A stretch of DNA of 26,545 nucleotides from a virus, in the IMG/VR virus record IMGVR_UViG_3300044681_000293, positions 1 to 26,545 of that record, one strand, 5' to 3'. A program made the position numbers and the translations under genes. The notes below the pieces were generated by a model that did no database searches, was not told the DNA's origin, and saw only the letters and a list, made by a program, of their open reading frames with translations. Below, piece after piece: positions 14,148 through 23,536 of the stretch (position 1 is its first letter; each line of letters starts with the position of its first letter).

Positions 14148-14375
14148 TCAAGATCCTTCTTCGTGATTCGTGTGAATTTTAACTATCTCTTCATAATTTA
14201 TATTCACGTCTTCACATATACTAACAACTTCTTTATATGGGACTATAACAGCATTTCCATGCTCACTTGTAATGATGAATGATTCTCCATTTTCAACTCT
14301 AGAAATTAATTCATCGAAATCTGATTGAAATTCTTCTACAGTAAATGATTGAAGTTCGCTAAGTTCTTGATTCAT
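14148..14375 (-). CDS. Phd/YefM-type antitoxin-like protein, orphan
   Basis: This 75-aa protein has the Phd/YefM N-terminal fold signature: QSFTVEEFQSDFDELISRVENGE then SFIITSEHGNAVIVPYKE (compare the usual start with a helix, G-E-x-h-x-h-T and a strand with V-h-h). Such proteins bind DNA as dimers and neutralise Doc or YoeB/RelE toxins through the C-terminus, here the acidic tail DVNINYEEIVKIHTN. No toxin gene lies next to it: upstream is tRNA-Pro and downstream a promoter. It could counter a host toxin or act as a repressor. It follows tRNA-Pro by 22 bases on the same strand and likely shares the 14488-14516 promoter. Confidence 0.72.
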   Translation of the reverse strand: MNQELSELQSFTVEEFQSDFDELISRVENGESFIITSEHGNAVIVPYKEVVSICEDVNINYEEIVKIHTNHEEGS

Positions 14376-16055: not shown

Positions 16056-16307
16056 TCAACGGACTTCAAAATCTAATTTACGAACTTTTCTTTTTCTTCT
16101 CTCTTCTTGCCAAGCAATATCTTGAGAAGTAAGCACACTTTTATTTTGATTTTCTTTTAATGAGTTTAGCATAACAATACGAGACAAGTCAAGTGCTGAA
16201 ATTTTATCTCCACGAATTGTTGCCATATTCGGACATCCACAAGTTATAGTTTTTGTGGGATGTCCAATTAATTCTTTATTACAATCTTTGCATCTTATTG
16301 AAATCAT
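16056..16307 (-). CDS. Small zinc-ribbon-like protein, 83 aa
   Basis: The N-terminus has CKDCNKEL (6-13) and ITCGCPN (21-27): two Cys pairs spaced as in a small zinc knuckle. The remainder is a charged helix ending RRKRKVRKLDFEVR. It could bind nucleic acid or protein. It follows the Dps-like gene by 15 bases, so both should come from the late promoter at 16773-16780, and tRNA-Ser follows it by 12 bases. The zinc site is inferred from Cys spacing only. Confidence 0.68.
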   Translation of the reverse strand: MISIRCKDCNKELIGHPTKTITCGCPNMATIRGDKISALDLSRIVMLNSLKENQNKSVLTSQDIAWQEERRKRKVRKLDFEVR

Positions 16308-16322
16308 CGTTTTACATCCTCA

Positions 16323-16757
16323 TCATTGAGTAAATGATCTTAACATCCAAATAAATTTACCGTGTCTTTCGTTTAAATCATCAACAAGATTTGTGGTTCC
16401 TCTTGAGTTTTGTTTTTCTGCTTCTTCAGCAACTTGATTTAAAAGTTCTACAACCTTTTGATGTCCTTCTAACAAATCACGAACCATTCCCATACTATCT
16501 AGCCCACTATTTGCTTCTGAGATATGAGAAACTTCAGTGATTCTAGAAAGAGTAGGAACTGGTTTTATATTTAAGTATCTCATATGTTCGGTGATTCTAT
16601 CAATCTCATCAAACATTGCTTCATACTGCTTCCCGAATAGTTTATGGAATTGATAGAAATCATCACCCACAACATTCCAATGATATACCCATGTCTTTTG
16701 GAATAAAACAAAAAGACTTGCTTGAGTATCAGAAAGTAATTTATATAGTGTTTCCAT
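16323..16757 (-). CDS. Dps/ferritin-like protein
   Basis: This 144-aa protein has the Dps four-helix bundle pattern. The ferroxidase-type residues keep exact Dps spacing: His26 (YHWNV), His38 (FHKLF), Asp53 and Glu57 (EIDRITEH). The acidic residue normally four after the second His is Gly42 here, which may weaken iron binding. Dps dodecamers store iron, detoxify peroxide and can bind DNA. There is no long basic N-terminal tail. A T4-type late promoter lies 16 bases before the ATG. Protection of phage or host DNA from iron and peroxide damage late in infection is inference. Confidence 0.83.
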   Translation of the reverse strand: METLYKLLSDTQASLFVLFQKTWVYHWNVVGDDFYQFHKLFGKQYEAMFDEIDRITEHMRYLNIKPVPTLSRITEVSHISEANSGLDSMGMVRDLLEGHQKVVELLNQVAEEAEKQNSRGTTNLVDDLNERHGKFIWMLRSFTQ

Positions 16758-16772
16758 CTTACTCTTTTTGAG

Positions 16773-16780
16773 TATTTATA
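16773..16780 (-). promoter_or_regulatory. T4-type late promoter (TATAAATA)
   Basis: There is an exact TATAAATA on the minus strand, 16 bases before the Dps-like ATG and next to the 3' end of tRNA-Val. T4-like phages use this element with a phage sigma (gp55) for late genes. Confidence 0.7.
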
Positions 16781-16783
16781 TAG

Positions 16784-16855
16784 TGGGCAATATCGGATTC
16801 GAACCAATGACTTACTGCTTGTAAGGCAGCCACTCTACCGCTGAGTTAATCGCCC
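16784..16855 (-). tRNA. tRNA-Val(UAC), copy 2
   Basis: The acceptor is GGGCGAT/ATTGCCC (one G-U), the anticodon arm GCTGC-CTTACAA-GCAGT (anticodon TAC), the T-loop TTCGAAT and the discriminator A. It differs in the stems from the copy at 7-78, so it is not a recent duplicate. Confidence 0.92.
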
Positions 16856-17007
16856 GAAAGGTGATGAGTGCCCATCACCAGCGGAAGACACTCTCCGCAA
16901 CGAGCGGGGGTGATCAAATCCCCGACCTAAGAAAACTTAGGATTTAGTGAGTCGGATATGATGATCCCGACTCTTATGATAGAATCGGACATTTCCAATC
17001 CTATCAA
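16856..17007 (-). other. Non-coding spacer with hairpins
   Basis: I find no gene or intact tRNA here. It holds two clear hairpins: CCTAAG-TTTT-CTTAGG (16926-16941) and GAGTCGG...CCGACTC (16949-16973). These may be tRNA-precursor structures or debris of lost tRNAs. Confidence 0.5.
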
Positions 17008-17562: not shown

Positions 17563-17634
17563 AGGCGGGGGGTGGAGTTGAACCACCTACCTGAAGCTTA
17601 TGAGACTTCTGTGCAACCGTTACACTTCCCCACG
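17563..17634 (-). tRNA. tRNA with CAU anticodon (Met or lysidine-Ile), copy 1
   Basis: The D-stem is GTGT/GCAC, the anticodon arm GAAGT-CTCATAA-GCTTC (anticodon CAT), and the T-arm GGTGG-TTCAACT-CCACC. The acceptor is CGTGGGG/CCCCGCC with an unpaired C1-C72, but the three G-C pairs of the initiator anticodon stem are missing. Discriminator T. Amino acid identity is unresolved. Confidence 0.75.
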
Positions 17635-18260: not shown

Positions 18261-18457
18261 AAGAAAAGGGATTACTCCCCAGTTCGCTCAAAGTGCTATT
18301 GCTCAAACGGCAACAGCAGTTCTGCGGAAAGATACGATGTTGTTGAGATTTATTCTCGAAACCCTCTGCCCAGTCGAATACCAGTTCATCCCCGATAATG
18401 GAGATGTGGGGAGTCGAACCCCAGTGTTGGACAGATTGTTGCCCCCAGTAGGGGCAA
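18261..18457 (-). pseudogene. tRNA debris, with a T-arm and 3' acceptor half at 18399-18423
   Basis: The minus strand keeps an intact T-arm TGGGG-TTCGACT-CCCCA and a 3' acceptor CATCTCCA (18399-18423). The upstream half does not fold: a CTGTCCA loop (Asp-like GTC) lies in the right place but its stem does not pair, and the 5' acceptor matches only partly. The rest of the gap to tRNA-Arg holds no gene; it looks like decayed tRNA sequence. Confidence 0.6.
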
Positions 18458-22209: not shown

Positions 22210-22359
22210 TTAAGCAGTTATATCAATCCACTCTTTACAATAGTCATAATCTCCAAACAAATAATCATCACATTCTGCTGCTTCCTTATATGCGTTCAGG
22301 ATTTCCTGCTCGCACCATTCATCATAATTGGAATCCTGCGAAAGTATTTTTGGTAACAT
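22210..22359 (-). CDS. Possible small acidic protein, 49 aa
   Basis: The frame begins MLPKILSQDSNYDEWCEQE, is acidic (AECDDYLFGDYDYCKEW) and ends DITA. It overlaps the last 38 bases of nrdB in another frame and fills the space before the terminator. It has three Cys. Overlap with a highly constrained gene end lowers confidence, but the downstream 110 bases have no other use. Confidence 0.5.
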   Translation of the reverse strand: MLPKILSQDSNYDEWCEQEILNAYKEAAECDDYLFGDYDYCKEWIDITA

Positions 22360-23503
22360 CTTGTTTAATCCCACCAACAATATAAGATTCGTTTTCCGTT
22401 TCTTGATTTGCTGTTTGAAGACCTTTAGAAGAAATCCAATGAGAAGTCCAAGGAAGTGGATTATTATTTGCTGCAATATCATATTGTGGTTTAAGACCAA
22501 TTGCCTTAATCCTACGATTTGCAATCCACTCAACATACTGTTGTAACAGTTTATCATTAAGACCAATCATGCTTCCATCTTTGAACAGATAATCTGCCCA
22601 ACGTTTTTCTTCATCTACAGCACGATCAAACATAGCATATGTCCATTCCTCTTCTTCTTTCATAATCTGCTTCATTTCTGGATCATCACCATCACGCCAT
22701 TTGTTCAGAATATTTTGAGTAATAGCTAGGTGTTGGTTTTCGTCTCTTGCGATGAGACTAATGATTTTAGCGGATCCTTCCATAAGCTTAAGTTCGCCAA
22801 AGGCGAAACTACAAGCAAAACTAACGTAGAAGCGAATACCTTCAAGAATATTAACGTTTGCGATTGCTCTGTACAATTTTCGTTTAACATCATTGATTGT
22901 TTCCTTTGCGTATGATACTCCTTCAAGATTATGCATCCAAGCATTAGACGCACCATATTGCTGTGATGATTGAATAAAGTCATCATATGATTCTGTAACG
23001 CTTTTAGCACGCTCCAGAATACGCTCATCGGTCACAATTTTATCAAACACCTCACTCGGGTCAGAATAAACATTTTTAATGATGTAGGTGTATGAACGTG
23101 AGTGAATCATTTCCATGAATCCCCACACTTCCATACATGCTTCCAACTCAGGAAGTGAGCAGTATGGAATAAATGCCATACCGGGACCACGACCCTGAAT
23201 AGAATCAAGCATAATCTGATACTTCAAGTTAGAAGTATAGATGTGCTTTTGTTCGGGGCGAAGTGTTTGATAATCTCCACGATCCTTCTGGAGAGACACC
23301 TCTTCGGGTCTCCAGAAGTATCCTAATTGCTGAGTAGTCAGTTTTTCAAAGATTGGATATTTGTATGAGTCATATCTTTGAACTCCCAGAGGCTTTCCAA
23401 AAAACATTGGTTGTTTTTTAGTATTAACTTGTTCCGTATTAAAAACAGTCATTCCTTTAATTTGTGTTTGGTTGTCTTCCGTGGAAGAAATCTTAAACTG
23501 CAT
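22322..23503 (-). CDS. nrdB: Class Ia ribonucleotide reductase small subunit (R2)
   Basis: This 393-aa R2 protein has the di-iron and radical site intact: Asp77 in KDRGDY, Glu131 and His134 in MEMIHSRSY, the radical tyrosine Tyr138, then the second helix pair with LEGIRFYVSFACSFAF and ARDENQHLA. The C-terminus NTFAGFQL is the peptide that docks into R1. With NrdA it makes deoxynucleotides for phage DNA. I chose the ATG at 23503, preceded by AAGGAGA; a GTG five codons upstream is inside that SD. It lies 33 bases after nrdA. Confidence 0.96.
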   Translation of the reverse strand: MQFKISSTEDNQTQIKGMTVFNTEQVNTKKQPMFFGKPLGVQRYDSYKYPIFEKLTTQQLGYFWRPEEVSLQKDRGDYQTLRPEQKHIYTSNLKYQIMLDSIQGRGPGMAFIPYCSLPELEACMEVWGFMEMIHSRSYTYIIKNVYSDPSEVFDKIVTDERILERAKSVTESYDDFIQSSQQYGASNAWMHNLEGVSYAKETINDVKRKLYRAIANVNILEGIRFYVSFACSFAFGELKLMEGSAKIISLIARDENQHLAITQNILNKWRDGDDPEMKQIMKEEEEWTYAMFDRAVDEEKRWADYLFKDGSMIGLNDKLLQQYVEWIANRRIKAIGLKPQYDIAANNNPLPWTSHWISSKGLQTANQETENESYIVGGIKQDVTKNTFAGFQL

Positions 23504-23536
23504 ACTCGTCTCCTTCACATAGATTATTTACCATAG

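Follow-up and report, generated by a model that had tools for sequence, protein, structure and literature searches.

A late-promoter Dps of a cyanophage lineage with an invariant glycine at its ferroxidase centre and a covarying leader hairpin

What would a cyanophage gain from a Dps (mini-ferritin) under a late promoter, and could such a protein oxidize iron when a glycine occupies a position at which the canonical ferroxidase centre has an acid? Photosynthesis genes are a well-known cargo of cyanophages, and these questions are raised by a different kind of gene in a 26.5-kb virus record (IMGVR_UViG_3300044681_000293; 26,545 nt, the whole of which is hereinafter the window). The record represents a T4-like cyanophage near the Synechococcus phage S-SRM01 (Kyanoviridae, Serangoonvirus), and its gene content includes nrdAB, 25 tRNA genes, glycosyltransferases and a porin. 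The span originally assigned to dps, which extends to 16780, comprises the ORF, its leader and a TATAAATA octamer (Table 1).

Table 1. Positions of the dps locus, its leader elements and selected genes in the window
Feature	Position	Strand	Remark
83-aa cysteine-containing ORF, phrog_8074	16056..16307	(-)	downstream of dps; Zn-ribbon-like by eye
dps ORF, 144 aa	16323..16757	(-)	H26, H38, D53, E57 kept; Gly42, His58, His132 invariant in clade
3′ arm of leader hairpin, GAGTA	16760..16764	(-)	2 nt before ATG
A-rich loop	16765..16769	(-)	predicted late transcription start about here, inferred from T4 late promoters (PMC2988020)
5′ arm of leader hairpin, TACTC	16770..16774	(-)	overlaps last two promoter bases
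Late promoter octamer TATAAATA	16773-16780	(-)	15 nt before ATG
tRNA-Val(tac)	16783..16855	(-)	directly upstream of dps
NrdB (class Ia ribonucleotide reductase)	22322-23518		

The proposal of a phage Dps, made in an earlier note on this DNA, is borne out by the agreement of Pfam, PHROGs and the predicted fold. The protein matches the Pfam Ferritin model PF00210 (E 2.2e-21; 76.7 bits, cut-off 24.5) and phrog_3636 of PHROGs (E 1.5e-35), its matches to the cyanobacterial and E. coli Dps equivalog models lie below those models' own cut-offs, and the first-ranked matches of a phmmer search against the PDB are Dps proteins. An AlphaFold2 model built with 24 sequences (pLDDT 91.4) predicts helices at residues 2-28, 34-61, 70-76, 88-115 and 119-143, i.e., the Dps pattern of four long helices with a short BC-loop helix. 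In Foldseek and VIA-align comparisons Dps chains come out on top over the whole length, with an rmsd of 1.0-1.2 A for most of the best matches and Z-scores of 23.2 for MrgA and 23.1 each for NpDps4 and TeDps, with 144/144 residues aligned. By both family and fold, the phage protein is a true Dps; a non-Dps ferritin-like family, which the earlier note had named as the profile-search result that would undo its reading, is ruled out on the same two counts. A defence-system protein was also considered and set aside, the PADLOC matches being at chance level only. The solved cellular Dps proteins, namely B. subtilis MrgA (2chp), T. elongatus Dps (2c41) and P. aeruginosa PaDps PA0962 (8ff9), resemble the phage protein in fold (Z about 23) and in the four ligands discussed below, at about 25-28% identity; PaDps likewise has no basic tail but, unlike the phage protein, has an acidic residue at the Gly42 position.

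Two scans of viral contigs, taken together with S-SRM01 and the window, furnished 161 usable loci coding for 93 distinct proteins; about 290-310 IMG/VR stretches encode relatives of this Dps. S-SRM01 is the sole named phage with a close relative, as against 225 records with window-like DNA. Across the 161 loci and 93 distinct proteins H26, H38, G42, D53, E57, H58 and H132 are unvaried. In the 81 loci checked for this purpose, Gly42 is encoded by all of GGA, GGT, GGG and GGC, and the median dN/dS against the window copy is 0.107; hence, the glycine is being kept as an amino acid, and the gene is under purifying selection. As to the gene-neighborhood, tRNA-Val(tac) is found upstream of dps in 55/76 loci tested, some tRNA stands 24-33 nt from the dps ATG in 65/76, and a tRNA just upstream is absent in the other 11; the phrog_8074 ORF follows dps in 78/80 loci, mostly 15 nt past the stop. 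The S-SRM01 counterpart, a “DNA starvation/stationary phase protection protein” (QPX48251.1) with 66% identity over 144 aa to the window Dps, shares with it Gly42, the late promoter, the hairpin and the downstream small ORF; it is known by annotation only, and Dps or ferritin is not found in the main text of the S-SRM01 paper (PMC8557907).

Dps proteins as such are already known from phages, having been described in Lactobacillus phages (PMC6669764) and gut phages (PMC8008677); phiEco32-like phages also carry known Dps. The same four ligands are present in the Dps of phiEco32-like phages, Aeromonas LAh, Salmonella 7-11, Lactobacillus Bromius, Bacillus phage G, Bacteroides BS162P1 and gut Gratiaviridae, all of which differ from the window clade in having Asp or Glu at the Gly42 position and a different genome setting, with identities of about 25-31%. 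The best cellular identities are about 39% (Simkania MAG) and 36% (a plasmid of Synechococcus PCC 7502, whose Dps has Gln at the Gly42 position). A recent capture from a cyanobacterial host is not supported, as the stem leading to the clade is long, in a weak tree with long branches and poor cyanobacterial sampling. A literature search for Dps in cyanophages returned no description of a Gly42/His58 clade or of a dps leader hairpin; both appear to be undescribed in the literature searched, whereas phage Dps is not new.

Numbered from Met1, H26, H38, G42, D53 and E57 of the window protein correspond to H31, H43, D47, D58 and E62 of L. innocua Dps with identical gaps of 12-4-11-4, so that the earlier note was correct in both the residue spacing and the numbering of Gly42. 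The inter-subunit ligands His, His, Asp and Glu (H26, H38, D53 and E57) are at Dps spacing and invariant in the 93 proteins, and Trp W27 and W137 are both invariant in the clade. At the fifth, B-site position the Asp/Glu of the canonical Dps ferroxidase centre is absent, with Gly42 in its place in 93/93 proteins. An acid at this position is not defining for Dps overall because cellular Dps with Met, Gln or Asn there exist. In canonical Dps the fifth-position acid acts via a water at site B (PMC6675082); in iron-soaked PaDps the two irons are bound by H37, H49, D64 and E68 only (PMC10002758), and NpDps4, in which Asn67 at the matching position takes no part, still oxidizes iron (PMC6675082). 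Thus, the claim that one acidic ligand is replaced by Gly42 holds as to the glycine and overstates the loss, given that the replaced residue is no direct iron ligand in PaDps and is an unused Asn in NpDps4. As only the four retained residues bind iron in iron-soaked PaDps, the sequence suggests that the phage protein has probably remained an active ferroxidase whose second iron site is altered.

This retention is an extrapolation, as glycine at the fifth position was found in none of the cellular or other-phage Dps checked: the 80 closest cellular Dps have Glu (64), Met (11), Gln (3) or Asp (2) there, and at the His58 position all 80 have Arg. The His-type cyanobacterial Dps NpDps4 and TeDpsA have lost the same B-site acid as the phage protein, Asn67 taking its place in NpDps4 (PMC6675082). 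However, their centre (His for Asp78; His164 of a third subunit; PMC6675082) is not matched in the phage Dps, which keeps Asp53 where NpDps4 has His78 and, by extending the alignment offset, has Met138 at the position of His164. We also considered substitutes for the lost acid within the phage protein itself. His132 as a substitute iron ligand is weakened by the presence of His in 31/80 cellular Dps, often in company with Glu at the Gly42 position, and by its failure to align with NpDps4 His164; a neighbouring acid as the substitute is rejected, residues 43 and 46 varying freely. The fixed Gly42/His58 pair offers a natural test of the role of the second iron site in Dps.

The late promoter posited upstream of dps is upheld by its conservation. 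A single TATAAATA is not significant by itself, with 3 occurrences in the window against 2.05 expected; however, a late-type octamer stands at the same place, 11-24 nt before the ATG, in 161/161 loci, which shows that the dps promoter is real. In 61 distinct leaders the octamer is TATAAATA in 34 and CATAAATA in 20, and the published cyanophage late promoter consensus is NATAAATA (PMC2984593). In T4, roughly one helical turn separates the late TATA box from the transcription start downstream of it (PMC2988020), and the same spacing would place the dps late start in the A-rich loop of a small hairpin.

This hairpin is the second conserved element of the leader. A perfect stem of 5-8 bp beginning from the octamer end is present in 47/61 distinct leaders, against a mean of 2.9 and a maximum of 7 in 200 shuffling trials, and its partner arm mostly ends 1-3 nt before the ATG; a 5-bp stem is absent in the remaining 14. 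The arms change together, as in TACTC/GAGTA, ATACTT/AAGTAT, ATACC/GGTAT, ATACTTC/GAAGTAT and TACTA/TAGTA. In a covariation alignment of 20 hand-picked, representative leader types, with an identical ORF start appended as an anchor outside the pairs, 89.2% of stem cells are paired versus at most 61.4% with the partner slid, there are 8 double changes, and the covariation score is reached by 0/500 shuffles. The stem is a short one of low stability (for the most part about -3 to -6 kcal/mol; whole-leader z-scores of only -0.9 to -2.0), and these modest stem energies leave the size of its effect uncertain. The window leader has a weak Shine-Dalgarno-like element, consisting of GAG only. The hairpin is not a feature of all late leaders: in S-SRM01 a stem of at least 6 bp occurs in only 6/66 late-promoter leaders, the dps leader included, where 2.1 are expected. 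Three other late-promoter leaders, at S-SRM01 162214, 177672 and 182659 (L173 12214, 27672 and 32659), have stems of 8-10 bp at or next to the octamer; located near replication and nrd genes, they are candidates for the same leader switch.

There is a precedent in T4, where an inhibitory helix covers the start region of e, soc, 49 and I-TevI (PMC3014915, PMC2988022); in e and I-TevI a late promoter lies in the 5′ part of the helix, such that long early RNAs remain untranslated and late RNAs are translated (PMC3014915, PMC2988022). The dps leader parallels e and I-TevI in that its late promoter shares bases with the 5′ arm of a hairpin at the start region; it differs from all four T4 cases in its shorter and weaker stem, in belonging to a cyanophage iron/redox gene and in being known here from sequence. 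By analogy, the hairpin probably prevents synthesis of Dps until infection has reached its late stage. A late RNA polymerase starting in the loop would produce an RNA lacking the 5′ arm, which could be translated. A pattern scan of the window detected no terminator between tRNA-Val and dps; therefore, read-through RNA from the upstream tRNA genes should carry the whole hairpin, and its translation would be hindered. The covarying hairpin suggests that a T4-style block on the early translation of late genes also operates in cyanophages.

Taken together, we favor, with some confidence, the proposal that this is a late-made Dps of a cyanophage lineage, locked to its stage by the leader hairpin, that removes Fe2+ and peroxide. 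Its subunits would assemble into a 12-mer oxidizing Fe2+, most likely with H2O2, and storing Fe3+; removal of Fe2+ and peroxide could then lower Fenton chemistry in a cell still photosynthesizing late in infection. Gly42 would deprive the second, weaker iron site of a carboxylate that acts through water, and might thereby change the kinetics or the choice of oxidant without abolishing activity. S-SRM01 also encodes a peroxiredoxin, a ferredoxin and high-light proteins, which fit a redox role and prove nothing. Conservation of a late mini-ferritin across hundreds of contigs from a single lineage would mean that cyanophages take over the control of iron and peroxide as well. More tentatively, and with the odds somewhat against it, one might see here a separate viral Dps subfamily with an oxidant-tuned Gly42/His58 centre, held back by the hairpin until late and dedicated to late iron and peroxide control.

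Other functions are conceivable for such a cage. Gly42 and His58 might have rendered it ferroxidase-weak or dead, binding iron or another metal without fast oxidation as a sink or structural shell, as their fixation in 93/93 clade proteins and absence from 80/80 close cellular Dps could imply; we hold this to be improbable, given the invariance of all four direct ligands along with W27 and W137, and the occurrence of cellular Dps with a non-acidic residue at the same position, including the iron-oxidizing NpDps4 with its Asn (PMC6675082). It is still harder to credit that the Dps is an iron store for phage iron enzymes such as the class Ia NrdB rather than a protectant: NrdA and NrdB are indeed both encoded in the window, but the late timing follows the main need for nucleotides. 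Only slightly better placed is a role for late Dps at the phage DNA itself, whether by binding or compacting it or by protecting the genome from within the virion. Late expression would suit virion assembly, and Dps domains are predicted in uncultured-phage proteins named prohead protease. Against this, the protein starts directly at helix A and has no Lys/Arg-rich tail of the E. coli type at either end, its computed pI is 5.46 with 21 acidic versus 15 basic residues, some relatives have a Glu-rich C-terminal tail, and the S-SRM01 dps has no recognized structural genes adjoining it. The DNA protection or compaction that the earlier note had entertained thus finds no footing in these features, and DNA binding through a basic tail is not expected, although some Dps lacking such tails, e.g., PaDps, still act on DNA in vitro (PMC10002758).

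With regard to the leader, the inverted repeat might instead act in the processing of tRNA 3′ ends, in stabilizing the mRNA 5′ end or in promoter binding, and not as a translation switch. That most loci have a tRNA no more than about 30 nt away from it is compatible with this; on the other hand, it persists next to other tRNAs and at some loci where none was detected (L017, L029 and L053), and its arms change in sequence while still pairing, a pattern not predicted for a DNA site bound by protein. We therefore regard this alternative as a minority possibility, and return to the translational switch as the preferred role of the hairpin.

Several further observations pertain to this lineage. A Thr/Glu-rich acidic C-terminal Dps tail of 27-31 residues is seen in 8 of the first 81 loci (L017, L020-L022, L047, L049, L052 and L053). 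The uncultured-phage “prohead protease” entries A0A6J7XDU5, A0A6J7WPK9 and A0A6J7WIS1 of BFVD contain a Dps-like fold, which may connect other phage Dps to the virion. In the window, the 151-nt non-coding stretch from tRNA-Asn to tRNA-Val (16856-17006, minus strand), with no match in Rfam, folds as a row of hairpins (z -5.2), and its modules of ~30-45 nt recur upstream of dps in 31/146 relatives at about 85-97% identity in varied combinations. Inside the tRNA array, 18374-18425 (minus strand) matches the permuted tmRNA family RF04321 at 40.3 bits (E 5e-5), below the gathering score of 47, and is possibly a phage tmRNA remnant or a relative, and 17563-17634 (minus strand) has an Rfam tRNA match of 46.4 bits that is not listed by ARAGORN. 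The phage porin (477-1946, minus strand), which the earlier note had coupled to Dps as another link to iron, is an SLH-OprB porin with SLH and OprB domains, resembling host outer membrane porins, and is no evidence about iron; in S-SRM01 a porin lies just upstream of dps. Finally, the window codes for a Phd-like antitoxin of phrog_375 (14148-14375, minus strand).
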